This document shows, piece by piece, positions 16,522 through 45,317 of a DNA stretch of 64,000 nucleotides. The stretch's first letter is position 1. Every line of letters begins with the position of its first letter. The DNA is from Verrucomicrobiia bacterium (GTDB lineage Bacteria; Verrucomicrobiota; Verrucomicrobiia; Verrucomicrobiales; Akkermansiaceae): the NCBI GenBank assembly GCA_030431475.1, contig JAUIJD010000009.1, positions 1-64,000 of the forward strand, read 5' to 3'. The notes under the pieces were generated by a model. It did no database searches, was not told the origin of the DNA, and saw only the letters and a list, made by a program, of their open reading frames with translations. A program made the translations under genes and the position numbers.

Positions 16522-16639
16522 CAAGGTCGGTGGTTCGATTGCGCAGGTAAACTATCAACATTTCTTAAGCATTCAAGGGACGGCTCCGGAAAAGTTTCGT
16601 CACCGGTGCGCCGTGGCACGTTCGGCCTCGAATCTGGCG

Positions 16640-17341
16640 TCATTCAGCGGGCACCACGTCCGCCACGATCGGGCGATGGTCCGAGGCGCGGTCGGCGGGC
16701 GCGTTGTCCAGACGCCGGAAGCTCACCTGCCCGACCGGGCCGCGGAGGCCGATCCGGTCGAGTGCAATCCAGGGGCGGCGGGCGGGGAAGGTGCGGCACC
16801 GCGACAGGTGAGGGAAACGCTGCCGCACGGCGCGCATGAATCGCGTCCCGGGACGCCACTCGTTGAGGTCTCCCATCAGCACCTGCAAGGCACCGGCATC
16901 TCGCTCGCCGACTTTCGAAAGCTGCTCCTCGAGAAGGCGGAGCTGTCGCCAGCGCTCGCTGCCGGAGAGTCCGAGATGGGTGCCGCAGACGTCGAGGCGG
17001 CCACCGGGCAGTTCCAGTTGAAGACGGATTGCACCCCGGGGTTCGGCTCCTCCGACATCGAGGTCGATGCGTTGGATCTCAAGGGCCTTGCGCCTTGCCA
17101 TCATCACGTTGCCGTAGGCGCCCCGGGACCTTCGGAGGACGGGGCCGTGCACGACGGTCGGGTAGCCGAGCTGCTCGAGGGCCCGGACGAAGCTCGAGTC
17201 CTGCGAGGGGTCGTCGTAGACCTCCTGGAGGGCGACGACATCGGCATCGGCCCGGCGGATCACCTCCAGCACGCGCCCGGCGTCCTCCCGGCCGTCGCGT
17301 CCGATTCCTCCGTGGATGTTGTAACTCAGCAGCCGCAGCAT
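16640..17341 (-). CDS. Endonuclease/exonuclease/phosphatase (EEP) family hydrolase
   Basis: The 233-residue protein opens with LRLLSYNIHGGIGRDGR and has VVALQEVYDD (metal-binding Glu), VCGTHLGLSGSERW, VLMGDLNEWRPG and SDHRPIVADV, the complete EEP catalytic set (Asn, Glu, His, Asp, Asn, Asp-His). No signal peptide is seen. Its ATG overlaps the stop of the upstream PLD-VTT gene by one base, so the two are translationally coupled. The nearby phospholipase D fold suggests a phospholipid or phosphodiester substrate rather than DNA (inference). Confidence 0.87.
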   Translation of the reverse strand: MLRLLSYNIHGGIGRDGREDAGRVLEVIRRADADVVALQEVYDDPSQDSSFVRALEQLGYPTVVHGPVLRRSRGAYGNVMMARRKALEIQRIDLDVGGAEPRGAIRLQLELPGGRLDVCGTHLGLSGSERWRQLRLLEEQLSKVGERDAGALQVLMGDLNEWRPGTRFMRAVRQRFPHLSRCRTFPARRPWIALDRIGLRGPVGQVSFRRLDNAPADRASDHRPIVADVVPAE

Positions 17342-21895: not shown

Positions 21896-21919
21896 GCCGG
21901 CGAGCCTCCGGCTCGAAGT

Positions 21920-21980
21920 GCCACGTGCCAAGTGCCAAGTGTCGACCCACCGGCCCGTGCATTTGTCATTTGTCATTTGT
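21920..21980. repeat. Two tracts of 7-bp tandem repeats
   Basis: GCCACGT, GCCAAGT, GCCAAGT lie in tandem from about 21920, and CATTTGT occurs three times in tandem at 21960-21980. Both lie in the divergent promoter region between the two-pass membrane protein and mnmA. Confidence 0.7.
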
Positions 21981-22004
21981 CTTCGGCCATTCTGAAGTCC
22001 GGGC

Positions 22005-29344: not shown

Positions 29345-30238
29345 CTAGGTGTGCTGGTGTCGACGCGCGCCGGTGGGTCGCGGGTGACGGTCGAGATACG
29401 CGTCGAGGGACATCATCGGGGGGCGCTCGCCCGGGGCGGCTTCACCACCGGGCAGACGGGCGAAGAAGGCGTCCAGGATCTGCCCCGACATGCGGCCGAG
29501 GTCGGCCAGCGAGCGGTTGCGGTGAATGCGCTCGTCGAGGTCGGTCTGGCCGATCGCGTCGGCGCCGGCCAGGGTCGCGACATCGATCAGGTGCGCCGTC
29601 TCCACCCCGTAGCCGGTGGGGAAGGCGATGCGCTCAAGCACCTGGCGGCGCGCGGCGTATTCGCCGGAGAGCGGTTGGTGGAGTCGGGCGAGATCGGGGA
29701 AGAAGCGTTTCAGGAGCGGGCGAACGAGGATCTCGGTCACCCGGCCGCCGCCTCGTGGATCGACCCCCTCGCTCGCCAGCAGCGGGCGCTCGTAGAACCC
29801 TTTGACGTAGTGAAGGGTGGGGTCGGCAAGGAGTGGACCGACCGTTCCGAGGACGAAGCGGGGGTGGAAGTTTCCGATGTCGCCATCGACGAAGCAGAGC
29901 AGGTCGCCGCGGCATTGGTGGACGGCTTTCCAGAGATTTTCGCCTTTGCCGCATGCCGGGCCTTCGCCGGGAAGGATGTCGGAGGCGAGGTGGACGGTGG
30001 CCCCGGACTCGACGGCGAGTTCGCGGGTGCGGTCGGTGGAGCCGGAGTCGATGACGACCAGCTCGTCGATCAGCGGGATGCGGAGGACGAGCTCCTCGTG
30101 GAGGCAGGAGACGATGCGGGCGATGGTCCCTTCCTCGTTCAAAGTGGGGATGCAGACACTGACGGTGAGCCTGCCCGCCTGCTTCCGTTCGAGCAGGTTG
30201 AGCGGGTCGGCGAAGTCGGAATGGTGGAAGGTCTTCAA
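29345..30238 (-). CDS. gpgS: Glucosyl-3-phosphoglycerate synthase
   Basis: GpgS (GT81, GT-A fold) transfers glucose from an NDP-glucose to 3-phosphoglycerate, the first step to the compatible solute glucosylglycerate. The 297-residue protein begins LKTFHHSDF, the typical N-terminus of this family. It has SVCIPTLNEEGTIARI, LVVIDSGSTDRTRELA, GKGENLWKAVHQCRGD and the DxD metal motif LCFVDGDIGNFHP. The start is TTG at 30236-30238, overlapping the crcB stop as TTGA. No upstream ATG or GTG fits the conserved start. A GpgP phosphatase gene is not visible nearby. Confidence 0.88.
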   Translation of the reverse strand: MKTFHHSDFADPLNLLERKQAGRLTVSVCIPTLNEEGTIARIVSCLHEELVLRIPLIDELVVIDSGSTDRTRELAVESGATVHLASDILPGEGPACGKGENLWKAVHQCRGDLLCFVDGDIGNFHPRFVLGTVGPLLADPTLHYVKGFYERPLLASEGVDPRGGGRVTEILVRPLLKRFFPDLARLHQPLSGEYAARRQVLERIAFPTGYGVETAHLIDVATLAGADAIGQTDLDERIHRNRSLADLGRMSGQILDAFFARLPGGEAAPGERPPMMSLDAYLDRHPRPTGARRHQHT

Positions 30239-30624
30239 GAGGTCAGGGAGTGGCCGGTGCGGAAGCCGACGAAGACCAGGAGCACTCCGCCGAGGGTTGA
30301 GACGAGGACGTTGACCGCGGCCAAGCCCCGGAAACCGTCCATGAGGAGCTCGCGGGTGTCGTTTCCGAAGGTGGAGAAGGTGGTGAATCCACCCAGAAAG
30401 CCGGTGACGACCAAGGGGAAGACCCAACCGGGCGCCGTGCGTCCGGTGACGGCGCCGAAGGCGGCACCGATGGCGAAGCAGCCGAGCAGGTTGCAGATCC
30501 CGATTCCCCAGGGGAACCGATGCAGGAACGTTTTCTCGGCCAGTGTCTGGACCCAGCCGGACAGCAGCCAGCGGGAAAGAGCACCGAGTCCGCCGCCGAG
30601 GAAGATCAGGAGACCGGAGGTCAT
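30235..30624 (-). CDS. crcB: Fluoride exporter CrcB/Fluc
   Basis: Fluc channels expel fluoride as dual-topology dimers. The 129-residue protein has four membrane helices and the family motifs LGGGLGALSRWLL at the N-terminus, WGIGICNLLGCFAIGAAFGA (the conserved Asn) and TGFLGGFTTFSTFGND (the Phe-box and TTFST). Only one copy is present, as expected for a dual-topology homodimer. gpgS is translationally coupled downstream. No fluoride riboswitch is recognisable in the leader. Confidence 0.93.
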   Translation of the reverse strand: MTSGLLIFLGGGLGALSRWLLSGWVQTLAEKTFLHRFPWGIGICNLLGCFAIGAAFGAVTGRTAPGWVFPLVVTGFLGGFTTFSTFGNDTRELLMDGFRGLAAVNVLVSTLGGVLLVFVGFRTGHSLTS

Positions 30625-30644
30625 GCGGCGCAGCCTACGGCCGC

Positions 30645-30672
30645 GAAGTTCCAAGTGAGAAGTTCCAAGTGA
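30645..30672. repeat. Tandem 14-bp duplication
   Basis: GAAGTTCCAAGTGA occurs twice in direct tandem, 21 bp upstream of the crcB start. Each unit resembles two 7-bp parts (GAAGTTC and CAAGTGA), similar to the 7-bp repeats elsewhere in the window. Confidence 0.75.
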
Positions 30673-30696
30673 CCGCGGGAGACCGCCGGTGGCGGG

Positions 30697-30718
30697 GACT
30701 GCTAAAAATTTAGCAGTC
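30697..30718. promoter_or_regulatory. Perfect 22-bp palindrome, probable operator
   Basis: GACTGCTAAA and TTTAGCAGTC are perfect inverted repeats around a central AA. The site is AT-rich in a GC-rich setting and lies 73 bp upstream of crcB, in the gene-free stretch before the restriction island. The shape suits a homodimeric repressor. Which regulator binds it is unknown, and no candidate is encoded next to it. Confidence 0.5.
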
Positions 30719-30870
30719 ATGACCGGGCGGGAGTGGGGGCGAGGTATGGTGGGCGCGGCATCGTGGGGGAGGGGGGAGAGAGGAAAAGGGCCGGGCTGGT
30801 TCTTTGGAGAAGGTCGGAGGCCGCACCCGACCCAATGTACCTGCTTCCTGACCTTCGGCCCACGCGGCCT

Positions 30871-31059
30871 CAATCTCGTGTTCAAGTGCATGGGCCTCGT
30901 GTTCAGGTTCATGGGCCCCGTGTCTATTTGCTTGGGGCTCGGGTTCAGGGCGATTGACACCGTGTGAAATGGCTCGGACACCGTGTCAAACGTCTCAAAC
31001 ATCGAGTTCCACGTCTCGGACATCCTGTCCTGGCTCTCGAACATCAAGCGCGGGCGGCC
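30871..31059. repeat. Array 1 of imperfect 21-bp tandem repeats
   Basis: About nine consecutive 21-bp units can be laid out without gaps from 30871 (starting points 30871, 30892, 30913, 30934, 30955, 30976, 30997, 31018, 31039). The best-conserved core is CTCGTGTTCA or ACACCGTGT followed by a variable part ending in CTC or CAT. Because 21 is a multiple of 3, open frames on both strands translate as 7-residue repeats (for example MFETFDT, VSEPFHT on the minus strand). There are no unique spacers, so it is not a CRISPR. Confidence 0.75.
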
Positions 31060-31154
31060 GGGATTGAGGTGGCGGCGGCGGGGAACAGCACCCCGCTGGC
31101 CACCCTTCCGGAAACGGAGCTCCGGAGTCCGTGACGTCGGTGGGAGCGTCCTCC

Positions 31155-31322
31155 GACGATTCTCGGGCATCTATCTTCGGGCCGGATGAATCGTTCGGCG
31201 TGCGGAAGGACGCTTCAGGCGCCCGGAAGGACTCCTCCGATGCGTTTCGGGAGTCCTTCCTCCGGGGGATGGACGACTGCCGCGCGTGCGGGAAGTCCAT
31301 CGATGCCTCTCGGGAGTCCTCT
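31155..31322. repeat. Array 2 of imperfect 21-bp tandem repeats
   Basis: Eight consecutive 21-bp units starting at 31155 share a core close to CGGAAGGAC or CGGGAGTC followed by TCNTC and a new GAT start. The consensus differs from array 1 but the period is identical, and weaker units extend upstream to about 31111. The plus strand reads as 7-residue repeats such as SSDAFRE, SIDASRE. The array ends about 140 bp before the hsdR start. The whole span 30625-31461 otherwise lacks a supportable gene. Confidence 0.75.
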
Positions 31323-31461
31323 TTGATCGCGCGAACGGAGCCGGGGCCGTGCCTTCATTCCCGATCCGAGGGGGAGAACTGAACTCACGCCTCATTAGGC
31401 TTTCACTCTGTCGCACCTTGTGGCGAAATTTTTCCGTAGCTAACAGCTCTCTCCCTCTCCG

Positions 31462-34284
31462 ATGCCCAACCAGAACCCCGAGCAACGCGCCCGTGATCTG
31501 ATCGACGAGCAATTGCGCGCCGCCGGGTGGACCGTGCAGAAAAAGACCGCCATCGATTTCAACGCCGGCCAGGGCCAGGCCGTCCGCGAATTCCAGACCG
31601 ACACCGGCCCCGCCGACTACGTCCTCTTCGTCGATGGCAAACCGGTCGGCGTGATCGAGGCCAAGAAGGAGGATCTCGGTCAGAATATCACCGTTACGGA
31701 GGACCAAACGGCCGACTATGCCGCCGCCAAGCTCAAGTGGGTTCAGAACACCGGCAAACCCCTCCCATTCCTCTACGAGGCCACCGGCGTCCTCACCCGC
31801 TTCACCGACCAGCGAGACCCGAAGCCCCGCTCTCGCGAAACCTTCACCTTCCACCGTCCCGAAACCCTCCGCGAACGCCTCGCCGCCGGACTCTCCCTCC
31901 GCCGTCGCCTCGCCGAGAACATGCCCGCGCTCGATCCCACCGGCCTGCGCGACTGCCAGGTTGGGGCCATCACCAACCTCGAGGCCTCGCTCGCCAAGGC
32001 CAAGCCCCGCGCCCTGGTCCAGATGGCCACCGGCTCCGGCAAGACCTTCACCGCCATCACCTCGATCTACCGCCTGCTCAAGCATGCCAAGGTCCGGCGC
32101 GTCCTCTTCCTCGTCGATACCCGCAACCTCGGCGAGCAGGCCGAACAGGAGTTCATCGCCTACACCCCCACCGACGACAACCGCTCCTTCACCTCCATCT
32201 ACGCCACCCAGCGGCTCGCCTCCTCCCACGTCCCCGCCGACGCCCAGGTCTGCATCTCCACCATCCAGCGGATGTATTCCATCCTCCAGGGCCGGGAAAT
32301 GACCGAGGGCGAGGACGAGGAGAACCCCGCCGAGTCCGGCCCGCTCAAGCGCAAGGAGCCGTTCCCCGTCGTTTACAACGAAAAGGTCCCGCCCGAGTTC
32401 TTCGACCTCATCATCATCGATGAGTGCCACCGCTCGATCTACAACCTCTGGCGGCAGGTCCTCGAATACTTCGACGCCTTCCTCGTCGGCCTCACCGCCA
32501 CCCCCGACGGACGCACCTACGGCTTCTTCAAGCAGAACCTCGTCTCCGAATACACCCACGAGGAAGCCGTCGCCGACGGCGTCAACGTCCAGGGCGAAAC
32601 CTACCTCATCGAGACCGAGGTCACGCAGCAGGGCGGCAAGGTCCTCAAGGGCCTGGTCGAGAAACGCGAAAAGCTCACCCGCCGCCAGCGCTGGGAGCAG
32701 CAGGACGAGGACGAGGACTACTCCGCCAAAAAACTCGACGGCGAGATCGTCAACCCCTCCCAGATCCGCACCGTCATCCGCACCTTCAAGGAACGGTTGC
32801 CCGAGATCTTCCCCGACCGCGCCGACGCCGACGGCGAGTTCCAGGTCCCCAAGACCCTCATCTTCGCCAAGACCGACTCCCACGCCGACGACATCATCCA
32901 GATCGTCCGCGAGGAGTTCGACGAGGGAAACCGCTTCTGCAAGAAGGTCACCTTCAAGTCCGACCAGGACCGCACCGACGCCGACGGCCAGGTCATCGAG
33001 CCGGGTGAGGACCCCAAGACCATCCTCGCCGACTTCCGCAACGCCTACTACCCGCGCATCGCCGTCACCGTGGACATGATCGCCACCGGCACCGACGTGA
33101 AGGCCCTCGAATGCCTCCTCTTCATGCGCGACGTGAAGTCCAAGGGCTACTTCGAGCAGATGAAGGGCCGTGGCACCCGCACCCTCGACCACGACTCGCT
33201 GAAAAAGGTCTCCTCCGCCGCCAAGACCGCCAAGACCCGCTACGTCCTGGTCGATGCCATCGGCGTCACCAAGTCGCTCAAGACCGCCAGCCGCCCGCCC
33301 GTCACACGGCCCAGCGTCACCTTCAAGGACCTCGCCATGGAGGTCGTCATGGGGTCCAGCGACGCCGACACCGTCTCCTCCCTCGCCGGACGCCTCGCCC
33401 GCATCGACCGCCAGCTCAAGCCCGAGCAGAAAACCGAGATCGAGGAGAAGACCGGCGGCGTCTCCCTCACCCAGCTCACGAAAGCCCTCTTCGCCGCCGT
33501 CGATGGCGAAAAGATCGAGCAACGCGCCCTGGAACTCGCCGGGCAGGAACCCGGCACCGACCCCGGCGACGCCAAGCGCGAGCAGGCCCAGCAGGAACTC
33601 GTCGCCGCCGCCGTCCAACCGCTCTCCGGCGCGCTCGTCACCCACATCGTCGAGACCTGCAAGAAGAACCTCCAGACCATCGACACCCACACCATCGATG
33701 TCCTCCTCGGGGCCGGTTGGGACACCAGCGCCACCACCGCCCCAAAGAACACCAAGGACTTCGAGACCTACCTGCGCGACCACAAGGATGAGCTGATCGC
33801 CCTCACCATCTTCTACGACCAGCCCCAGCGCCGCCAGGAAGTCACCTTCGCCCAGATCCGCGAGGTCTTCGACCACCTCCAGGCCAACGCCCCACACCTC
33901 GCCCCGCTCAACGTCTGGCAGGCCTACGCCCGCCTCGACGAACTGCCCGGGAACGCCACCCCGCTCAGCGAACTCGCCGCCCTCGTCGCCCTCATCCGCC
34001 GCGCCTGCGGCATCGACGAAAAGCTCGCCCCCTTCACCGAGACCGTCCGCCGCAACTACCGCGACTGGATCATGCGCAAGAACGCGGGCCAGCCGATGAC
34101 CAAGACTCAGCTCGCCTGGCTGGAACTCATCCGCGACCACATCATGACCTCCTTCCACCTCGAGCGCGACGACCTCGACTACGCCCCCTTCGACGCCCAG
34201 GGCGGCCTCGGCAAGATGCACCAACTCTTCGGCGACCAGATGGACGCCCTCATCGATGAACTCAACCGGGAGCTGGTGGCGTGA
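31462..34284 (+). CDS. hsdR: Type I restriction enzyme subunit R (EcoEI type)
   Basis: HsdR is the ATP-driven translocase and nuclease of a type I restriction complex. The 940-residue protein has an N-terminal PD-(D/E)xK nuclease (PADYVLFVDG with Asp52, VIEAKK with Glu66 and Lys68). A superfamily 2 helicase follows: ATGSGKT at 189-195, IIIDECH at 317-323 and GLTATP after it, with motif VI-like QMKGRGTRT later. The C-terminus is EcoEI_R_C-like. Codons strongly prefer C in third position, unlike several neighbours. It overlaps hsdS by 4 bp. Confidence 0.95.
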   Translation: MPNQNPEQRARDLIDEQLRAAGWTVQKKTAIDFNAGQGQAVREFQTDTGPADYVLFVDGKPVGVIEAKKEDLGQNITVTEDQTADYAAAKLKWVQNTGKPLPFLYEATGVLTRFTDQRDPKPRSRETFTFHRPETLRERLAAGLSLRRRLAENMPALDPTGLRDCQVGAITNLEASLAKAKPRALVQMATGSGKTFTAITSIYRLLKHAKVRRVLFLVDTRNLGEQAEQEFIAYTPTDDNRSFTSIYATQRLASSHVPADAQVCISTIQRMYSILQGREMTEGEDEENPAESGPLKRKEPFPVVYNEKVPPEFFDLIIIDECHRSIYNLWRQVLEYFDAFLVGLTATPDGRTYGFFKQNLVSEYTHEEAVADGVNVQGETYLIETEVTQQGGKVLKGLVEKREKLTRRQRWEQQDEDEDYSAKKLDGEIVNPSQIRTVIRTFKERLPEIFPDRADADGEFQVPKTLIFAKTDSHADDIIQIVREEFDEGNRFCKKVTFKSDQDRTDADGQVIEPGEDPKTILADFRNAYYPRIAVTVDMIATGTDVKALECLLFMRDVKSKGYFEQMKGRGTRTLDHDSLKKVSSAAKTAKTRYVLVDAIGVTKSLKTASRPPVTRPSVTFKDLAMEVVMGSSDADTVSSLAGRLARIDRQLKPEQKTEIEEKTGGVSLTQLTKALFAAVDGEKIEQRALELAGQEPGTDPGDAKREQAQQELVAAAVQPLSGALVTHIVETCKKNLQTIDTHTIDVLLGAGWDTSATTAPKNTKDFETYLRDHKDELIALTIFYDQPQRRQEVTFAQIREVFDHLQANAPHLAPLNVWQAYARLDELPGNATPLSELAALVALIRRACGIDEKLAPFTETVRRNYRDWIMRKNAGQPMTKTQLAWLELIRDHIMTSFHLERDDLDYAPFDAQGGLGKMHQLFGDQMDALIDELNRELVA

Positions 34285-35819
34285 GTGAGGAACAACTACC
34301 AACGGGGTGGGCGCGAACAACGCTGGAGCCGCTTGGAAGCCTTTACTGTGGGCAATCACTCACAGCCAGCAAGGTGAACCGTGACGGCAAGGGCGTCCCT
34401 TACGTTACAGGACCAGAGCAATGGGATGGCGAGAAGGTCCACAAGGACAAATGGACCACCGAGCCTGCACGAATGGCTCCGGATGGCTGCATCTTCATCA
34501 CCGTGAAGGGCGCTGGTGTGGGGAAGCTCTTTCCGGGAATCGCATGTGCCATCGGTCGTGACGTCTACGCTTATCATCCTTCTCCCGAACTTCCGCGCAA
34601 GTTCATCGAGTTGTCCCTCCGATTTACGATCGCTGAGGTTGTTGCCGAGGCTAAAGGAGACATTCCGGGACTTTCCAAGGCCCACATTCTTCAACACTCA
34701 ATCCCCCTCCCACCCCTCGCCGAGCAGAAGCGGATCGTGGCGAAGATCGAGGAGTTGTTCAGCGAGTTGGACGCCGGGGAGGAGAGTCTGCGGCGGGCGC
34801 GGCGGCAACTCGGCGTCTATCGCCAGTCCCTCCTCAAACAAGCCTTCGAGGGCAAGCTCACCGCCCCCTGGCGCGCCCAACACCCCGACCTCCTCGAATC
34901 CCCCGACCAACTCCTCGCCCGCATCCAAGCCGAACGCCAAGCGCGATACGAGCAGCAGCTTGAGGAGTGGGAAGCTGCTGGCGGAGGCCGTGGCAAACCG
35001 AAGAAACCCACGGCAGTCAAGGCATCAGCTATTCCAGAAGGTTTTCTGGATTCGACTGCCGAGTGCTGGATGGCAACGCCGCTCGGAAACCTAATCGACG
35101 AACCGGCCTACGGAACATCGAAGAAGTGCGGCTATGAAACTGGCTCCATCGGGGTTCTTCGGATTCCAAACGTCGTGAACGGGGCAATCGATTCCGGTGA
35201 CCTCAAGTTTGCCGATTTTAACCAAGCGGAGCGCGAGGGCTACGCATTGCAGGCTGGCGACCTGCTGCTGATTCGCTCCAATGGAAGCGTCTCGATTGTA
35301 GGCCGGTGTGCGCTGGTTGAAACCAAGCACGAAGACTACCTCTACGCTGGGTATTTGATCCGATTGAGACCACTTCAGCGAGTCATCGCCCCCCGTTTCA
35401 TTCTGAATCAGTTGTCCTCGACAAGACTCCGGTCACAGATCGAGTCCGCCGCAAAGTCGACGAGCGGAGTCAACAACATCAATTCAAAAGAAATCCAGCG
35501 CCTGACACTCACGCTGCCCTCCCTCCCCGAGCAACAGGAGATCGTCCGCCTGCTCGACGAGCAATTCGAGGTGATCGAGCAGAACGAGCGGGAGATCGAC
35601 GCCGCGCTGAAGCGCAGCGAGGCCCTGCGCCAGTCCATCCTGAAAAAGGCCTTCACCGGCCAACTCGTATCCCAGGACCCCACCGACGAACCCGCCTCCA
35701 CCCTCCTCACCCGCATCCAGACCGAACGCAAAGCCGCCGACCAGGTCGTCAAGCCTAAGAAGAAGGCTGCCAGGAGAAGAGCCAAACGCGTCAGAAAGCC
35801 ATCCCACGAAGCCCCATGA
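34281..35819 (+). CDS. hsdS: Type I restriction-modification specificity subunit S
   Basis: HsdS carries the DNA-recognition domains. The 512-residue protein has two target-recognition halves. Each ends in a conserved coiled coil: LPPLAEQKRIVAKIEELFSE (about residue 145) and LPSLPEQQEIVRLLDEQFEV (about residue 412), followed by QSLLKQAFEGKLTAPW and QSILKKAFTGQLVSQD. A Lys/Arg-rich tail ends the protein. GTG start overlaps the hsdR stop. The recognition halves have lower GC than hsdR, as expected for domains exchanged between systems. The target sequence cannot be read from the protein. Confidence 0.93.
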   Translation: MSEEQLPTGWARTTLEPLGSLYCGQSLTASKVNRDGKGVPYVTGPEQWDGEKVHKDKWTTEPARMAPDGCIFITVKGAGVGKLFPGIACAIGRDVYAYHPSPELPRKFIELSLRFTIAEVVAEAKGDIPGLSKAHILQHSIPLPPLAEQKRIVAKIEELFSELDAGEESLRRARRQLGVYRQSLLKQAFEGKLTAPWRAQHPDLLESPDQLLARIQAERQARYEQQLEEWEAAGGGRGKPKKPTAVKASAIPEGFLDSTAECWMATPLGNLIDEPAYGTSKKCGYETGSIGVLRIPNVVNGAIDSGDLKFADFNQAEREGYALQAGDLLLIRSNGSVSIVGRCALVETKHEDYLYAGYLIRLRPLQRVIAPRFILNQLSSTRLRSQIESAAKSTSGVNNINSKEIQRLTLTLPSLPEQQEIVRLLDEQFEVIEQNEREIDAALKRSEALRQSILKKAFTGQLVSQDPTDEPASTLLTRIQTERKAADQVVKPKKKAARRRAKRVRKPSHEAP

Positions 35820-37510
35820 TCTCGTCACTTCAGCCCAAGGGTCACGAACTCGTCTACGATCTGGTCCGCGAGGCAGGCGTGGATGTCTCCGATTGGTCGA
35901 ACTACGATCGTCCGGACCTACCCCAAACCAATCCGAAATACTGCTACAACTGGTCATTTTTCGGATCTGACCGCGTGGTCATCTGCCTCTGGTTTGACGA
36001 GATGCAGGAAGATGATTTGGGAATCTTCCAGCACCTCAATTACAGCGAGATACCCGAGAAACGTGGAGCGAGTTCAGTTCGCCGTCGGCGTGCCATGGAC
36101 ATGAACCGGGCGTTTTTCACAGCCTTTCGAGACGATCTCATCGTGAGGGTCATCATCGTCCACGACCCGGATGACCAGAGCGATGACCGCGAAGTCAAGC
36201 TGCGCGCCCTCGACCCGGTGGAGTGGCACGTCGCCAGTTACGATGAGGATACGGGCTGGTGTCGCATTCAGCGCGGCCCCAAGAAGTCCGATGCCATCCC
36301 ACAAGACGGATCGCATGCATCAAGGGGCCACCGAGTCTCGATGGTCCGCTTTCGCTCCGAATTGGAGAACCTGAAAGCCCACCTTCTCGATTACGATGGC
36401 TTTCCGTTTGAGTCCTTTACCCGTGGAAAGATCTACGACTGGGAAAGCTACAAGGACTACGTCTTTGCCGAAGCAGGGCGAAGGCTCGCCTGGCAAACGT
36501 GGGACAGCGAGGAAGTCGGGACAGGCGCGATCCTCGACCGGGTGATCCATGCCATCGAAATCAACGAGGGCAAGGACCGCCGCAACAATCTGCTCAAGTG
36601 GCAGCAGTATGGTGTTCACCAAGTCCTCACAGACGCCCGCAACGACAAACGCTGCTTCGAGGTCGAGAGCCTGCTCTTCGATTTTTACACGGGCGAACTG
36701 GCTGCTGAGGATGCCTTTGATCCACTGACTGAACATTTGGGCAAGAAGTATCCACTGATCGCCTACCTCTTCTTCATCAAGGACAACAGTCGCTACCTTC
36801 CGATTTCGCCTGCGAAGTTCAGCCAGGCATTCGAGCGCCTCGGCGTCAGCCTGAACACGGCTGGAGAATGCAGCTGGGAGAACTACTCCGCCTACCTCTC
36901 CGTGATTCGGGAGATCCGTGACTTTCTTGAGCTTGAGGGCTTCGACGGTATCCGGCTACTCGACGCCCACTCGTTCTGCTGGCTTCTGATCAACATCGAT
37001 GAGCCAGAGGAAGTTTCAGGCCCGCGGGCGCAGATTGAAGAGTTCGATGCCTCCACCCAGCTCAGTGGATCGAAATCAAAGAAGGACGTTGATTGGGAGG
37101 CCCTTCATCGGGCGCGAGCCGCTCTTGGGCGACTGGGTGAGGAACTTGCCCTCGATGCCGAAAAGTCCCGCCTGACCGACGCCGGTCACCCCGATCTGGC
37201 TGCGAAGATCCATTTGGTCAGCGAGGATCACACCAAGGGATACGACCTCCACTCCTTCGAGACCGACGGCAGCGACCGCTTGATCGAGGTGAAGACGATG
37301 AGCGAAGACCGTCCCGCGGTGCGATTCTACACTTCACAGCGTCAGCTCGAGCTCGCTCATTCCGAAGTGAACCATTTCTACTACCTCGTCCGCGGGGCAA
37401 GAACCGCCAAGCCGAGGATTCAGGCCGTCCGGGCGCACAGCATCCCCGAAGAGGCGATTAGCCCGATTGTCCACGAAGTTGCCTGGACGGATGCGACTCA
37501 AGACTCTTGA
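35816..37510 (+). CDS. DUF3883 protein inserted in the type I R-M operon
   Basis: The 564-residue protein starts with VYDLVREAGVDVSDWSNYDR and PKYCYNWSFFG, an N-terminal module also seen in HNH-type and other defence nucleases. The middle is of unknown fold. The C-terminus (about residues 430-550) is a DUF3883/NERD-like domain: LGRLGEELALDAEKSRLTDA, then GYDLHSFE (Asp477) and RLIEVKT (Glu491, Lys493), the D...ExK pattern of PD-(D/E)xK nucleases. It overlaps hsdS by 4 bp (ATGA). A second nuclease or modification-sensing effector is inferred; its role is unproven. Confidence 0.75.
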   Translation: MISSLQPKGHELVYDLVREAGVDVSDWSNYDRPDLPQTNPKYCYNWSFFGSDRVVICLWFDEMQEDDLGIFQHLNYSEIPEKRGASSVRRRRAMDMNRAFFTAFRDDLIVRVIIVHDPDDQSDDREVKLRALDPVEWHVASYDEDTGWCRIQRGPKKSDAIPQDGSHASRGHRVSMVRFRSELENLKAHLLDYDGFPFESFTRGKIYDWESYKDYVFAEAGRRLAWQTWDSEEVGTGAILDRVIHAIEINEGKDRRNNLLKWQQYGVHQVLTDARNDKRCFEVESLLFDFYTGELAAEDAFDPLTEHLGKKYPLIAYLFFIKDNSRYLPISPAKFSQAFERLGVSLNTAGECSWENYSAYLSVIREIRDFLELEGFDGIRLLDAHSFCWLLINIDEPEEVSGPRAQIEEFDASTQLSGSKSKKDVDWEALHRARAALGRLGEELALDAEKSRLTDAGHPDLAAKIHLVSEDHTKGYDLHSFETDGSDRLIEVKTMSEDRPAVRFYTSQRQLELAHSEVNHFYYLVRGARTAKPRIQAVRAHSIPEEAISPIVHEVAWTDATQDS

Positions 37511-37583
37511 GAAGAACGAGCGGGAGGTTGCCGATCCGCCTCTGAATCGGAAGACTATCTCCGAACTCGCTGAAGCGACATGA
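37491..37583 (+). CDS. Possible 30-residue linking ORF
   Basis: A small frame begins at an ATG inside the end of the DUF3883 gene (+1 frame) and ends with a TGA that overlaps the next gene's ATG as ATGA. The product reads MRLKTLEKNEREVADPPLNR then KTISELAEAT. It fills the only sizeable gap in the operon and would couple translation across it. It could instead be a frameshifted remnant of a longer DUF3883 C-terminus. No family is recognised. Confidence 0.35.
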   Translation: MRLKTLEKNEREVADPPLNRKTISELAEAT

Positions 37584-39550
37584 GCCTCCTCTCGGAAATC
37601 CACTCTGTTTCGGACATCGATTTGCTGCGCGAATCGGTGGATCTGGAATGCAAGCTGGCTTTGGGGCAGGACGGTCAAGGCAAGCTGCCCAAGGATTTCT
37701 GGCCGACCTACTCCGCCATGGCCAACACCGAGGGCGGCCTCATTCTGCTGGGGGTTCAGGAGAAGAAGGGACGATTCCAGGTCAGGAACATTCCCAACCC
37801 CAACGCGATCCGAAAGGAATTGGCCGACCTCCTCGCCAATCGCCAGAAGGTCAGTGTCAATCTGCTCTCCGACGATCGCATCCAGGAACTGGACCTCGAA
37901 GGGAACCTGATTCTGGCCATCGAGATTCCGCGTGCTACCCGGAAGCAGCGCCCGGTATTCATCAACGGCAATCCCTTGGGCGGAACCTTCCGCCGTTTTC
38001 ACGAGGCCGACCAGACGGTGCCCGACGATGAGGTGAAACTCGTGCTGGCCGAGGGACAGGCAGAGTCCCTCGACTATAGGGTGCTGCCGCGTTTCGGCAT
38101 GCAGGATCTCTCACTGCCGACCCTTCAAGCCTATCGTCAAACCCATGCCACGCTGAACCCCGGGCACCCGTGGAGCGAATTGGACAATCTCTCCTTCTTG
38201 CGCGAGATCCGAGCTTGGAACTTCGACCGGGAATCCGGGGAGGAAGGCCTCACCGTAGCGGGCTTGCTGATGTTCGGTAAATTCCAGTCGATCCAGGACG
38301 AGTTTCCCCACTACGCCCTCGACTACCAGGAGAGATCGGAGGCAAAGGCGGAGAAGCGCTGGATCGATCGCCTCTGGCTCGATGGATCCTGGTCCGGCAA
38401 TCTCTACGACTTTTTCCGCCTGGTGTATCCCAAGCTCACCGCCGGGTTGAAGCTTCCCTTCGCCCTCAAGGGTGGATTGCGCGACGAGGACACCCCCATC
38501 CACGAAGCACTGCGGGAGGCCTTGGCCAATACCTTGATTCATGCGGACTACCGGCAGCGGGCGCGGGTGCTCGTGGTCAGGCGGCCCGACATGTTCGGAT
38601 TCCAGAACCCTGGCGACATGCGTATCCCGATCGAGCTGGCGCTCCGGGGCGATGAGCCGGACTCGCGGAACAAGCGCCTCGCGCACCTGTTCGGGTTCGT
38701 CCGCATCGGGGAGAAGGCCGGGACGGGCATCCCCCGGATCATGGCTGGCTGGAAGAGCCAACACTGGAGGCAGCCGTCCTTGACGGAAGAATACGAGCCC
38801 AGCCCCCGGACCATTCTGCGCCTCCAGATGCTGGATCTCTTCCCCTCTGGTGTGCTCGATATTCTCAGGCTTCAGTTCGAGGATCGGTTCGAGTCACTGG
38901 ACGAACCCAGCCGGTTGGCCTTGGCCACGACATTTACGGAACGCCGGCTCACCCATGCCCGCCTGAGCGAATTGACGGAGCTCCATCCAAGCGACGTCAC
39001 CAAAACCCTCCGTAGTTTGGTAAGCCAAGAATTTCTCGATTCCGAAGGATCAGGGCGGGGCACGGTTTACCGCTTCAAGGGCACCCGAAAAGTCACTTCC
39101 GAAGATGTTTTTAGCGAGCCAAGCTCCCCGAATTTCGAGCCCAGCTCCCCGAATTTCGGACCGAACTCCCCGAATTTGCCGGAAGACCCTCCGCAACCGC
39201 TGTCCACCGACCCCGACCGGGACGAGTACGGGCGTCTGATTTCCAGTCACTTCCACATGCCGTTCGTCGACGACTTGGGCCACCTCGATCCTAAATTCCG
39301 GGAGCACCTGGAGGAATTGGCGGAACTGCCCCGCACCCTAGGGAAGATCAACCGGGAGAAGATGATCGAGACCCTCGAAAGGCTCTGTGAAGGCCACTAT
39401 ATCCGCCTCGATTGCCTTGCCTCTCTGGTGAACCGCAAACCGGGAACTCTCCAAGGGCAATACCTGACCCAGCTTTGCCGCGACCAACACCTGCGGATGG
39501 CCTTCCCCGACAAACCCAACGATCCACGGCAAGCCTACACCAAAGCCTGA
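37580..39550 (+). CDS. AlbA_2 (Schlafen-like) / HATPase_c_4 protein of the R-M island
   Basis: The 656-residue protein has an N-terminal AlbA_2/Schlafen AAA_4-like domain (LLRESVDLECKLAL, YSAMANTEGGLILLGV, about residues 14-120). A GHKL-type HATPase_c_4 region follows (EALREALANTLIHADYRQR at about 308, then FGFQNPGD, and IGEKAGTGIPRIM). Winged-helix-like segments form the C-terminal part. A Ser-Pro-Asn-rich linker (SSPNFEP, SSPNFGP, NSPNLPE) marks an internal repeat. Proteins of this kind are often found in type I R-M loci, where their role is unclear. It ends 9 bp before hsdM. Confidence 0.82.
   Translation: MSLLSEIHSVSDIDLLRESVDLECKLALGQDGQGKLPKDFWPTYSAMANTEGGLILLGVQEKKGRFQVRNIPNPNAIRKELADLLANRQKVSVNLLSDDRIQELDLEGNLILAIEIPRATRKQRPVFINGNPLGGTFRRFHEADQTVPDDEVKLVLAEGQAESLDYRVLPRFGMQDLSLPTLQAYRQTHATLNPGHPWSELDNLSFLREIRAWNFDRESGEEGLTVAGLLMFGKFQSIQDEFPHYALDYQERSEAKAEKRWIDRLWLDGSWSGNLYDFFRLVYPKLTAGLKLPFALKGGLRDEDTPIHEALREALANTLIHADYRQRARVLVVRRPDMFGFQNPGDMRIPIELALRGDEPDSRNKRLAHLFGFVRIGEKAGTGIPRIMAGWKSQHWRQPSLTEEYEPSPRTILRLQMLDLFPSGVLDILRLQFEDRFESLDEPSRLALATTFTERRLTHARLSELTELHPSDVTKTLRSLVSQEFLDSEGSGRGTVYRFKGTRKVTSEDVFSEPSSPNFEPSSPNFGPNSPNLPEDPPQPLSTDPDRDEYGRLISSHFHMPFVDDLGHLDPKFREHLEELAELPRTLGKINREKMIETLERLCEGHYIRLDCLASLVNRKPGTLQGQYLTQLCRDQHLRMAFPDKPNDPRQAYTKA
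39116..39178 (+). repeat. Three 21-bp repeats inside the AlbA_2/HATPase gene
   Basis: Three units sharing AGCTCCCCGAATTTC or AACTCCCCGAATTTG begin at 39116, 39137 and 39158 and encode SSPNFEP-type heptads in the linker. The period equals that of the two arrays upstream of hsdR. Confidence 0.85.
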
Positions 39551-39559
39551 GAATCCCGC

Positions 39560-41044
39560 ATGACCACCGAATCCATCGTCTCCAAAGTCTGGAGCTTCTG
39601 CCACACCCTGCGCGACGACGGCGTGGGCTACGGCGACTACCTCGAGCAGCTCACCTACCTCATCTTCCTCAAGATGGCGGACGAGTATGCCAAGCCGCCC
39701 TACAAGCGGGATGTCGGCGTACCCGAGAAATACAACTGGGCCTCCCTGCGTGCCCTCAAGGGAGCCGAACTGGAGGGTCACTACATCGAGACCCTGCGGG
39801 AGCTCGGGACCGAGAAGGGCATGCTCGGCCAGATCTTCACCAAGGCGCAGAACAAGATCCAGGACCCCGCCAAGCTCGCCCGGGTCATCGAGATGGTGAA
39901 CGACACCCAATGGACCACGCTGGAGGCCGACGTGAAGGGTGACATCTACGAGGGCATCCTCGAGCGCAACGCCGAGGACACGAAGTCTGGCGCGGGCCAG
40001 TATTTCACCCCGCGCTCCCTCATCGCCGCCATGGTCGAGTGCGTCGCCCCCGAGCCAGGCAAGACCATCGCCGACCCCGCCTGCGGCACGGGTGGCTTCT
40101 TCCTCGCCGCCTACGACTACCTGGTGAAGCACCACAAGCTCGACAAGGCGCAGAAGGCCTTCCTCAAGACCAAGGCCTTCCACGGCAACGAGATCGTCCC
40201 CGGCACCCGCCGCCTGTGCCTGATGAATCTCTTTCTCCACAATATCGGCGAGATCGACGGCGAGAGCCTCGTGTCCCCGACCGATGCCCTGGTCATGCAG
40301 CCCGCGCAGACGGTCGACTACGTCCTCGCCAACCCGCCCTTCGGCAAGAAGAGCAGCATGACCTTCACCAACGAGGAGGGCGAGCAGGAGAAGGACGAAC
40401 TGACCTACAACCGGCAGGACTTCTGGGCCACCACCTCGAACAAGCAGCTCAACTTCCTCCAGCACATCCGCTCGATGCTCAAGACCACCGGTCAGGCCGC
40501 CGTGGTCCTGCCCGACAACGTGCTCTTCGAGGGCGGAGCCGGCGAAACTGTCCGCCGCAAACTCATGGAGACCTGCGACCTCCACACCATCCTCCGCCTC
40601 CCCACCGGCATCTTCTACGCCCAAGGAGTGAAGGCGAACGTCCTCTTCTTCGACAACCGCGCCGCCGGCAAGGGCGTCGCCACCAAGGAAGTCTGGTATT
40701 ACGACTACCGCACCAACATCCACCACACCCTCAAGCGCAGCCCGATGCGGCTGGAGAACCTGCGGGAGTTCATCGACTGCTACCGTCCCGGCACCCGCCA
40801 CAAGCGCAAGCCCACCTGGGACGCCGACAAGAACCCCGACGGCCGCTGGCGGAAGTTCACCTACGAAGAACTCGCCGCCCGCGACAAAACCAGCCTCGAC
40901 CTCTTCTGGCTCAAGGACGACACCCTCGCCGACCTCGACAATCTCCCCGAACCCGCCGACCTCGCCGACGAGATCATCGACAACATCGAAGCCGGCCTCG
41001 CCAGCTTCCGCACGGTCGCCGCCAGCTTGTCGTCAGGCGAGTGA
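39560..41044 (+). CDS. hsdM: Type I restriction-modification methyltransferase subunit M
   Basis: HsdM makes N6-methyladenine at the sites read by HsdS. The 494-residue protein has the HsdM_N helical domain (SKVWSFCHTLRDDGVGYGDY), then GAGQYFTPRSLIAAMVECV, SAM motif I ADPACGTGGFF (171-181) and catalytic motif IV ANPPFGKK (257-264), and a C-terminal HsdS-interacting region. It is the last gene of the island although M usually precedes or follows S directly. Its C-ending codon preference matches hsdR and contrasts with the two genes just before it. Confidence 0.95.
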   Translation: MTTESIVSKVWSFCHTLRDDGVGYGDYLEQLTYLIFLKMADEYAKPPYKRDVGVPEKYNWASLRALKGAELEGHYIETLRELGTEKGMLGQIFTKAQNKIQDPAKLARVIEMVNDTQWTTLEADVKGDIYEGILERNAEDTKSGAGQYFTPRSLIAAMVECVAPEPGKTIADPACGTGGFFLAAYDYLVKHHKLDKAQKAFLKTKAFHGNEIVPGTRRLCLMNLFLHNIGEIDGESLVSPTDALVMQPAQTVDYVLANPPFGKKSSMTFTNEEGEQEKDELTYNRQDFWATTSNKQLNFLQHIRSMLKTTGQAAVVLPDNVLFEGGAGETVRRKLMETCDLHTILRLPTGIFYAQGVKANVLFFDNRAAGKGVATKEVWYYDYRTNIHHTLKRSPMRLENLREFIDCYRPGTRHKRKPTWDADKNPDGRWRKFTYEELAARDKTSLDLFWLKDDTLADLDNLPEPADLADEIIDNIEAGLASFRTVAASLSSGE

Positions 41045-41075
41045 GGTCGCCGTGAGGGTGGAGGGCGACGCCGAT

Positions 41076-41091
41076 GCCAGGTGAACCTGGC
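41076..41091. terminator. Small hairpin between hsdM and the permease gene
   Basis: GCCAGGT and ACCTGGC are perfect inverted repeats around GA, between convergent stop codons. No T-run follows on either strand, so termination is only a possibility. Confidence 0.3.
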
Positions 41092-41099
41092 GCTCCGTT

Positions 41100-41936
41100 T
41101 CAGCTCCGTCGCGCGGCGAGCACGCCGTAGCGGGGGCTGAAGAGCCAGGCGAGGAGGAAGAGCGAACCGAGCACCATGACAATGGTCGGGCCGGTGCTGA
41201 GGTTGAGCGCCGCGGAGATCAGCACCCCGGAAAGGGAGCCGATGGCACCGAGCAGCCCACCGCCCCAGAAAAGGAGGGAGGTCCGGTCGGTGAAAAGTGA
41301 AACGGTGGCGGCGGGAGCGACGAGCAGGCCGACCGAAAGGACGCAGCCGACGGCCTGCAGCGAGGCGACCAGCGACAGGGCGAGCAGGGCGAAGATGATG
41401 TACTGCATGGAGCGGACCGGGACTCCTTGGGCGGCGGCGACGTTGGGCTCGAAGAGGGTGAGCAGCATTGGGCGCATCAGCAGGTTCACGCTGAGCAGGG
41501 TGAGGGAGCCGATGCCGAACATGGTCCAGAGATCGGCATTTCCGACCGCGAGGATGTCGCCGAAGAGCCAGTGCTCGAGTTCCTGCCGGGTCTCGAGGTG
41601 GGGCAGGATGGCGACGCCGGCGGCGAAGGCCGTGGTATAGATGACGGCCAGCGCCGTGCCCTGGGCGATTCGTTTGCCACGGGACACCGCGACCGAGCCA
41701 AGCCCGACGAGCAGGGCGGCGAAGAGCGCTCCCAGGAACGCACTGAGCTGGGTGAGGGCACCGGCGACGAGGATGCCCAGCGTGATGCCCGGGAGCATGG
41801 TGTGGGAGAGGGCGCTCACCGAGAGGGCGTGCCGACGCAGCACGACGAAGCCGCTGAAGAAGCCGTTGCTGAAGCCGATCAGCACCGCCGCGACGAGCGC
41901 GCGCTGGAAGAAGGGACTATGGAGCAGGTCTTCGAT
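41100..41936 (-). CDS. Metal ABC transporter permease (ZnuB/MntB type), start unclear
   Basis: This membrane permease of a zinc- or manganese-type ABC importer has about eight helices and the family features GFFSGFVVLRRHALSVSALS near the N-terminus, HTMLPGITLGILVAG and LLVAPAATVSLFTDR. Homologous proteins start with a segment like IEDLLHSPFFQRALVAAVLI, but here the codon at that point (41934-41936) is ATC, and no ATG, GTG or TTG is in place. The first in-frame candidate is a GTG at 41885, which would cut into helix 1. A GGATTTC-type repeat lies just upstream, so the true start may have been lost. The coordinates use the homology-based start. Confidence 0.8.
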   Translation of the reverse strand: MEDLLHSPFFQRALVAAVLIGFSNGFFSGFVVLRRHALSVSALSHTMLPGITLGILVAGALTQLSAFLGALFAALLVGLGSVAVSRGKRIAQGTALAVIYTTAFAAGVAILPHLETRQELEHWLFGDILAVGNADLWTMFGIGSLTLLSVNLLMRPMLLTLFEPNVAAAQGVPVRSMQYIIFALLALSLVASLQAVGCVLSVGLLVAPAATVSLFTDRTSLLFWGGGLLGAIGSLSGVLISAALNLSTGPTIVMVLGSLFLLAWLFSPRYGVLAARRS

Positions 41937-41979
41937 GGCGGATCGGGGATTTCGGATTTCGGAACGGTCGGAAAAGCGA

Positions 41980-42741
41980 TCACTCGATGGCGGCCGGGAC
42001 GGCAAAGGTGCGGTCGAGCAGCTCGGGCGTGAGGACTTCGGCGACGGGGCCGAAGGCGACCTGCCGGGTCGAGAGCAGCAGCGCCTCGTCGAAGAGTTCG
42101 GGAGCGCTCCGCAGGTCGTGGTGCGAGGCGATGATGAGCCGGCCCTCGCGGGCGAGCCGGTCGAGCAGCTCGCCGAGTTGCGAGGAGGCGCGTCGGTCGA
42201 GCCCGGTGAAGGGCTCGTCGAGCAGCAGCACATGGGCTTCCTGGGCGATGGCCCGAGCGAGGAAGGCGCGCTGCTGCTGTCCGCCGGAAAGTTCGCGGAT
42301 CTGCCGTTCGCGCAGGTCGACGAGTTCCAGCGCCTCGAGGGCGCGATCGACGGCGTCCTCGTCGCTGCTGGAGAACCGTCCCCACCAGCCGGCTTGGGGA
42401 TAGCGGCCCATCTCGACGAGGCCCCGGACGGTGATGGGAAACGACCAGTCGACTTCCTCGCGCTGGGGGAGGTAGGCGAACTCCCGAGACCACTTTTTGA
42501 CCGCCGTGCCGCGCCAGCGGATGGTCCCGGCGGCCCGCGGGACGAGTCCGGCGATGGCCTTGATGAGGGTGCTCTTGCCGGCGCCGTTGGCACCGATGAG
42601 GGCGACGCGGTTGCCGCAGGAAGTGGCGAAGCGGATCCCGTCGAGGGCGACGTGCCGGCGGTAGGTGACGCGGAGGTTCTCGACCACCAGTTCGTGATGG
42701 TGGTCGTGGTGCTCGCAGCAGTCGTGGTGGACCTCGCTCAC
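41980..42741 (-). CDS. Metal ABC transporter ATP-binding protein (ZnuC type)
   Basis: The 253-residue ATPase has Walker A LIGANGAGKSTLIKAI, the Q-loop LPQREEVDWSFPITV (typical of Zn/Mn importers), signature LSGGQQQRAFLARAIA, Walker B VLLLDEPFTGLD and the switch His in IASHHD. The N-terminus is His-rich (HHDCCEHHDHHH), which could bind zinc. GTG start at 42739-42741 overlaps the upstream gene by 4 bp. The permease follows after 43 bp. No periplasmic binding protein (ZnuA-like) is encoded nearby. Confidence 0.92.
   Translation of the reverse strand: MSEVHHDCCEHHDHHHELVVENLRVTYRRHVALDGIRFATSCGNRVALIGANGAGKSTLIKAIAGLVPRAAGTIRWRGTAVKKWSREFAYLPQREEVDWSFPITVRGLVEMGRYPQAGWWGRFSSSDEDAVDRALEALELVDLRERQIRELSGGQQQRAFLARAIAQEAHVLLLDEPFTGLDRRASSQLGELLDRLAREGRLIIASHHDLRSAPELFDEALLLSTRQVAFGPVAEVLTPELLDRTFAVPAAIE

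Positions 42742-45247: not shown

Positions 45248-45317
<70 letters not shown>

Follow-up and report, generated by a model that had tools for sequence, protein, structure and literature searches.

Two arrays of 21-bp repeats at the border of a type I restriction-modification island in an Akkermansiaceae genome: candidate protein-binding sites or insertion-border minisatellites

The window analysed here is a stretch of 64 kb from an Akkermansiaceae genome of about 4.7 Mb; by succinate dehydrogenase flavoprotein, its named relatives are Verrucomicrobiaceae bacterium E54 (92%) and MAGs of the Akkermansiaceae. Two arrays of 21-bp units lie in it, in a gap of about 0.8 kb between the divergent genes crcB and hsdR. 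Table 1 gives the coordinates of these features, along with the arrays found at other hsd operons. A first-pass annotation, made from the sequence alone, had placed a type I restriction-modification (R-M) island downstream of the arrays, and domain scans confirm it through hsdR, hsdS and hsdM. Loci are designated below by L numbers, and most genomes by G numbers.

Table 1. Features of the window around the two arrays, and arrays adjoining other hsd operons
Feature	Position	Strand	Description
crcB	30235..30624	-	left flank, divergent from hsdR
Array 1	30871..31059	.	nine gapless 21-bp units, consensus TCGTGTtCAaggtCTcGGACA
Inter-array stretch	31060..31154 (95 bp)	.	clear 21-bp period absent
Array 2	31155..31322	.	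eight 21-bp units, consensus gGGAcTCCTtCggCGcGcgGa; symmetry p = 0.0005
Array 2-hsdR interval	31323..31461	+	139 bp to hsdR start codon
hsdR, type I restriction subunit	31462..34284	+	HSDR_N, ResIII, EcoEI_R_C
hsdS, specificity subunit	34281..35819	+	domain scans
NO VEIN C-terminal domain protein	35816..37510	+	PADLOC: PD-T4-1-like
SLFN_AlbA_2 / HATPase_c_4 protein	37580..39550	+	DNA-binding HTH matches below cut-off
In-frame 21-bp repeats x3, AlbA_2 gene	39115..39177	+	heptad EPSSPNF, coding
hsdM, methyltransferase subunit	39560..41044	+	domain scans
ABC transporter ORF	41100..42593	-	right island flank, by homology of place and by eye
L291 array	before hsdR		15 units; neighbours HsdR, PDDEXK_4, HsdS (domain scan)
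L282 array	before hsdM		about 12 units of 22 bp; neighbours HsdM, HsdS (domain scan)
L294 array	before hsdM		8 units, 21/22 bp; neighbours HsdM-DUF559, HsdS (domain scan)
L292 array	behind hsdR		13 units; neighbours HsdR, AlbA_2 (domain scan)

An ORF call of 311 aa spans array 1 and continues into crcB; it was taken as an upstream extension. For two small mechanical ORFs close to hsdR, of 83 and 71 aa, Pfam gives no match at E ≤ 1 and ≤ 0.1. The interval between array 2 and hsdR contains a single terminator-like hairpin, at 31409-31425, and a consensus scan of it found no sigma-70-like promoter. On the other side of the gap, a GAAGTTCCAAGTGA doublet adjoins crcB at 30645-30672; it has dozens of dispersed matches in the genome E54. 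The coding repeats of the AlbA_2 gene are a separate matter from arrays 1 and 2. 21-bp repeats within AlbA_2/HATPase genes of type I R-M islands were also seen at L292:6864-6948 and L298:6653-6736. Elsewhere the window holds 7-bp tandem arrays, at 45250-45316 and 21916-21981 (GGAGCGG x 9.6; AAGTGCC; CATTTGT).

Structure of the two arrays

The core of array 1 recurs at positions 30871, 30892 and so on to 31039, in nine registers of 21 bp, and approximates the dyad GRACA-YCG-TGTYC. Its identity at lag 21 is 0.60, the top value of the whole window, over lags 4-99, when windows of 147 and 189 bp are used; with windows of 105 bp it ranks third, behind lags 7 and 14 of the heptamer array at 45248. 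In array 2 the identity is 0.53 at lag 63, 0.50 at lag 84 and 0.48 at lag 21, and lag 24 also exceeds 3 sd (0.38). Measured against mononucleotide shuffles, the column information stands 15.1 sd above expectation in array 1 and 9.1 sd in array 2, and the whole gap, from 30659 to 31461, is 9.7 sd above a first-order Markov null (40 draws). The nine and eight units of the first-pass annotation are thus borne out by the shuffled controls, far above which the period stands; the 'weaker units' that it placed between them are hardly present, lag-21 identity in 31060-31154 being 0.32 over 74 pairs, with lag 21 outside the ten best lags. Arrays 1 and 2 are a real and mildly surprising structure.

The two consensus sequences differ while the period is the same, as had been noticed at first sight: compared as PWMs, on both strands and at all shifts, they are unrelated (p = 0.67), and a common ancestral consensus was rejected. 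An origin of either array from a 7-bp repeat was also rejected, lags 7 and 14 being within 2 sd of the null.

The lag scan puts array 1 at the top of the 64 kb with the two longer windows, but TRF at its usual scores returns a sole 21-bp row at the arrays, 30875-30923 with 2.3 copies; this standard finder nearly misses both arrays. Relaxed TRF settings drown the signal in coding noise at multiples of 3, and scans restricted to gaps were therefore added.

Nothing similar to the arrays stands above chance elsewhere in their own genome. The pattern GRACAYCGTGTYC, allowing at most one mismatch, has 68 + 63 matches in the genome, whereas the reversed pattern gives 11 + 15; three matches are exact, none of them inside an array. 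A regulon reading of this excess is uninformative, since codon usage may account for it.

The insertion site and the survey of arrays

Periods were compared with a contrast score that removes codon periodicity, and a place was retained when its score was at least 0.15. By sequence comparison, the site between crcB and the ABC transporter (30625-41100 of the window) is a variable insertion site, because it is empty in one relative and holds other content in two more. In G014 the ABC transporter comes directly after crcB, the homology to crcB stopping 36 bp before that to the transporter, and island and array are both absent. In E54 (Verrucomicrobiaceae bacterium) the site is occupied by a different stretch of 10.8 kb, whose left part holds an aminotransferase class-V (cysteine-desulfurase-like) ORF, and the gap of G002 contains an ORF for a xylose-isomerase-like TIM barrel that scores just under the family cut-off. 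The stretches around the site in these three genomes have no 21-bp place at contrast ≥ 0.15.

A search for arrays of the same period in the genome and its relatives, as the first-pass annotation proposed, yields 21/22-bp arrays at some loci, but the DNA of arrays 1 and 2 itself is only weakly matched: in 18 genomes of the genus the best match besides itself has E = 0.0024 (L182, a coding repeat), and there is no match in phage or plasmid records. A tblastn search of plasmids with a heptad query gave 10 records, with E from 2e-6 to 0.5. A pattern search of 145 genomes of the family identified one further array, in G461 (L196), adjoining a truncated HsdM (HsdM_N, E = 1e-11); its reversed control was not empty, with 8 matches in G465. 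A second pattern search found one genome besides the window's own (G235), against 4 control matches. A tie between the array and this lineage of hsdR was rejected: in the 1.5-kb flanks of the 14 other HsdR matches (E ≤ 1e-150, 288 genomes), no 21-bp place exceeds 0.50.

The survey covered 94 Akkermansiaceae stretches, 1.88 Mb in total: the window, 400 kb more of its own genome, 1.2 Mb of sister genus genomes, 200 kb of named relatives, and 20 kb of G461 that were picked for their array. Among periods 11 to 41, period 21 has the most places, nine, followed by period 39 with six, 14 with five, and 16 and 24 with four each; periods 17-20, 22, 23, 25 and 26 have none. The nine are array 1, array 2, L196, L044, two in L050, L225, window 39084 and L209; among them, L225 is a 7/14-bp array and window 39084 is the coding repeat of AlbA_2. 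Period 42, the harmonic of 21, has 14 places, and periods 45 and 48, whose scores lean on fewer lags, have 9 and 20.

When called gaps of at least 150 bp are scanned, a significant period appears in 6 of 183 gaps of the hsd set and in 12 of 289 of the other set. It is 21 or 22 bp in six of these 18 gaps (L292, L291, L282, window, L044, L050) and takes other values in the remaining 12. The consensus differs from one array locus to the next, except for G461 and L241, both of which were found by the array 1 pattern, and for the two arrays of L050, which are inverted copies of each other. Both arrays of L050 (1486-1802) lie behind an MlrC / M81-peptidase gene in the MAG UBA2429. Related-looking alternating repeats of 36/72 bp were noticed in two Akkermansiaceae MAGs, at L043:17000-17200 and L045:12690-12885, where no ORF is called.

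Arrays at the edges of hsd operons

Forty stretches of 20 kb around hsdM were chosen, prior to scanning, for spread and contig extent; three of them come from G461. A non-coding array of 20-22 bp occurs in four (L291, L282, L294 and L292), and 36 have none, including the three others of the window's own genome. All four arrays sit in a gap adjoining the hsd operon; one follows the operon and the other three precede it. In the window, L291, L282 and L294, where the array precedes the operon, the gap is divergent and the first hsd start is about 140-365 bp away; the spacings in L294 are 21, 21, 22, 21, 22, 21 and 21.

Counted by gap, arrays occur in 4 of 64 flanking gaps versus 3 of 407 others (L044, L050, L158), with a Fisher p of 0.008, in a test that was framed after the first arrays, including that of the window, were known, and that excludes the window gap and, as selected, the L196 array. 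The gap z-scan alone, which missed L294, gives 3/64 versus 2/407 (p = 0.02), and TRF with a score of at least 100 alone, the sole detector of L294, gives 4/64 versus 1/407 (p = 0.0014). The counts rest on 183 + 289 gaps, of which 63 flanking, and on two scans whose ORF filters differ slightly; the hsdR-side gap of L292 was added by hand, the operon rule having stopped at a gap of 170 bp. Not counted as arrays were L303 (TRF 60, CT-rich), L309 and L276 (34/68 bp), nor the coding-looking repeats of L182, L298 and L292:6843-6948.

The result shifts with the treatment of L158 and of G461. The 42-bp array of L158 lies between hsdS and an IS200-like transposase: moving it to the flanking class gives 5/65 versus 2/406 (p = 0.0007), and dropping it gives p = 0.004. 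L292 and L294 both belong to G461, in which an array had been found beforehand; with the three stretches of this genome removed, the count is 2/59 versus 3/395 (p = 0.13), or p = 0.08 with L158 dropped and 0.02 with L158 as an hsd flank. Thirty more hsdM loci (L242-L271) show no 21-bp place above contrast 0.15 in 1.5-kb flanks, many of which stop short of the operon border, and some of these places overlap the set of 40. The evidence for a link between arrays and the borders of type I R-M operons is suggestive, and a good part of it comes from a single genome, G461. The first-pass annotation had offered, among its readings, a structural spacer before the island; this comes closest, in that arrays are repeatedly placed at hsd operon edges.

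Other repeats were seen at such operons. The L158 repeats (16612-16743) are directly behind the hsd gene, and the transposase that follows is of the Y1_Tnp family; at L276:10464-10800, a 34/68-bp repeat fills part of the gap behind an hsdM operon and is followed by an ORF that starts like the transposase of L158. Behind hsdR of G029, at L170:1375-1490, there are loose TTGT-N5-ACAA palindromes with a spacing of 20-28 bp, below threshold.

The array is no obligate part of an R-M cassette: the L292 operon recurs in G483, with hsdR 92% and hsdM 89% identical, and homology ends at the end of hsdR, the array being absent there. Among the neighbours scanned at L044 and L050 no R-M gene is present.

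Readings of the arrays

Since spacings of 21, of 22, and of 21 mixed with 22 bp all occur, they point to the DNA helix rather than to codons. This bears on the first proposal made for the locus, a decaying gene for heptads of a coiled coil. Coding heptads of 21 bp do exist nearby, in the AlbA_2 gene of the island, and in the viral contig L240, and on the minus strand array 1 is crossed by one open frame, which runs on into crcB. The claim that frames stay open on both strands holds for some of them: array 1 has one stop-free frame of three per strand, and array 2 two of three on the plus strand and one on the minus strand. However, when Pfam was run on four array frames, three had no match at E ≤ 1 and one had two matches with E of 0.05-0.06, below cut-offs, and the array 1 frame has no match at E ≤ 0.01, besides itself, in 387 genomes of the phylum. 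Like-placed arrays break the codon frame, with period 22 in L282 and 21/22 in L294, and stops fall in all six frames of L291 and L050; L282 is stop-free in every frame, and open frames also exist in L292, L196 and L044. We hold a decayed coiled-coil gene to be unlikely in a strong sense of the word.

The reading that we put forward, tentatively and with less than even confidence, is that arrays 1 and 2 belong, in worn form, to a loosely defined class of locus-specific, non-coding arrays of 21-22 bp, whose likeliest nature would be that of dyad-symmetric protein-binding sites controlling or insulating the operon. A unit every 21-22 bp, or every two turns of B-DNA, would present the same helix face repeatedly, and putative operator- or iteron-like sites on that face would bind a protein; at the edges of those Akkermansiaceae type I R-M operons where members of the class are placed, the array would then control the hsd operon or insulate it from its neighbours. 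The position of array 2 in a divergent gap, ending 139 bp before hsdR, suits control of the operon. The data show the period, the position beside hsd operons at a minority of loci, consensus sequences that are mostly specific to their locus, and dyad symmetry across the set; that a protein binds, which protein this would be, and its action on hsd expression are inferred. The AlbA_2 protein is a candidate for the binding partner only by its position and by HTH matches below cut-off. A binding protein common to the array-bearing islands was not found: AlbA_2 is present in the window and L292, while the ORFs scanned in L291, L282 and L294 do not include it.

Dyad symmetry is present over the set, with a Fisher-combined p of 4e-6 for nine arrays (the set without L294). 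Singly it is significant in three of the nine (array 2, p = 0.0005; L044, 0.0002; L291, 0.002), borderline in array 1 (0.06), and not significant in L196, L292, L282 and the two L050 arrays. It is not peculiar to this class of arrays, because the control array L225, of 7/14 bp, gives p = 0.0085. Core columns are better conserved than the rest in L044, L292 and L282 (p = 0.0005 each) and in L196 (0.023), by a test of column heterogeneity that ignores the shared descent of units; the test is not significant in array 1 (p = 0.16), array 2 (p = 0.12), L291, L294 and L050. Symmetry and uneven columns fit, without proving, arrays of sites for dimeric DNA-binding proteins.

Palindromic units may also act as RNA: a transcribed array of hairpins could be an insulator or a terminator at that level. 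Folding z-scores are low for the plus strand of array 1 (-3.7), L291 (-6.4), G461 (-4.2), L044 (-3.9) and L292 (-2.4), but tandem palindromes fold anyway, and the scores of the minus strand of array 1 (-1.6), array 2 (-1.9 / -1.8), L050 (-0.8), L294 (+0.4) and L282 (+1.5) do not follow. No Rfam family reaches its gathering score, the best being radC RNA with 21.2 bits versus 40. We consider this RNA reading quite improbable.

The strongest competitor of binding-site arrays is a neutral one. A short stretch may have been tandemly duplicated, and then have decayed, at the young and unconstrained insertion borders of mobile R-M operons; the arrays would be minisatellites or border debris, and their period would reflect the mechanism of duplication, not binding. 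Several observations agree with it. The arrays are private: those of the window have only the weak matches given above in the genus, and the unit pair of L282 is found in one of the 18 genomes, only at its own array. Every degree of decay is represented, mean pairwise identity of units ranging from 0.91 in L282 to 0.45 in array 2. The array of G461 adjoins the truncated hsdM and that of L292 adjoins what appears, by eye, to be gene debris; the operon of the L292 type in G483 lacks an array; the L158 array next to a transposase and the L276 repeat fit border debris; and 12 of the 18 significant gaps have periods other than 21/22. However, duplication and decay alone leave the narrow period and the set-wide dyad symmetry unexplained, as well as the conserved core columns of L044, L292 and L282. 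Our confidence in binding sites came down, and that in minisatellites went up, because of the share of G461 in the statistics, the L225 control and the finds at L158 and L276. Binding-site arrays and insertion-border minisatellites are now about equally likely.

Known systems and significance

In geometry, the nearest known systems are origins of replication: the iterons of theta plasmids and the origins of lambda O type consist of tandem units of about 20-22 bp that are helix-phased, often dyad-symmetric and locus-specific. The units described here are also in tandem and of that length. A rival reading takes the arrays as origin-like iterons, left by phages or satellites that carried the R-M operon, or decoying them. 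In the viral contig L241, four 21-bp units TAGACACCGTGTCTAGCCCCC, the fourth differing in its last two bases, lie within a gene with a match to PHROG 391, 'replication initiation O-like' (E = 9e-7); the contig shares GACACCGTGTC with array 1, from which the pattern that found it was derived. These units, palindromic and at L241:3893-3976 (minus), are probably in-gene origin iterons. However, the other viral match, at L240:1928-1977, is a 21-bp repeat coding for the coiled-coil heptad KKEHDEL in a methylase-like ORF; no initiator gene is present beside the arrays of the window, whose neighbours are crcB and hsdR and whose units are far more degenerate; arrays 1 and 2 have no counterpart in the phage and plasmid records; and the core-pair patterns of L282, L291, L292 and G461 give no match in viral contigs under exact matching. 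The chances of this reading are slim. Equally slim are those of a bolder version: some Akkermansiaceae type I R-M operons would carry a cis-element of a kind that the present searches did not encounter, namely a private, helically phased, phage-origin-like array of palindromes, on which a phage initiator or a host protein would dock as a decoy or as a switch that turns on the R-M operon at infection. A decoy role for the arrays is conceivable but unsupported.

Non-coding repeats in gaps also include the REP elements and other repeats associated with IS200-like transposases, and heptameric short tandem repeats. Repeats of these kinds are present in the same genomes, with the L158 array as an example next to hsdS and an IS200-like transposase, but their periods are 42, 34/68 and 7, whereas arrays 1 and 2 have no sub-period of 7 or 14 bp; and no transposase ORF is seen beside arrays 1 and 2. 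CRISPR arrays, likewise repeats split by variable stretches, have near-identical repeats, unique spacers of about 26 bp or more, and cas genes. Here, the repeats are degenerate, with about 8-12 variable bases per unit, unique spacers of the CRISPR kind are absent, as the first-pass annotation had stated, and no cas domain is found among the island proteins scanned. As for coding heptad repeats, arrays 1 and 2 share their open frames with them, but have neither a relative nor a domain above cut-off.

The nearest precedent among R-M systems is RptR (Zhang et al. 2025, PMC12255303), where a type I R-M operon is repressed through direct repeats that lie in front of it and have a palindromic core. 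The repeats there number three, are 9 bp long and are built around TAGCTA; two overlap the -10 box, and rptR is the first gene of its operon. The arrays described here are likewise direct repeats before a type I R-M operon; their symmetry is clear in array 2 and borderline in array 1, but is also found in the control array. They differ from the RptR sites in having 8-15 units of 21-22 bp, against 9-bp repeats, in lying about 140-365 bp upstream, and once behind the operon, in cores that are not TAGCTA-like, in a sequence that varies between most loci, and, as far as the ORFs scanned show, in the lack of a regulator gene. No description of such arrays was met among the abstract openings searched.

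How type I R-M operons stay harmless in a new host and switch on at infection is a largely open question, to which RptR is a recent answer in Gammaproteobacteria (PMC12255303). Locus-specific arrays that recur next to hsd operons of a different phylum would offer a concrete way into this question. If, on the other hand, the arrays are minisatellites, they label the borders at which mobile defence operons were inserted, and may reveal how such operons move.
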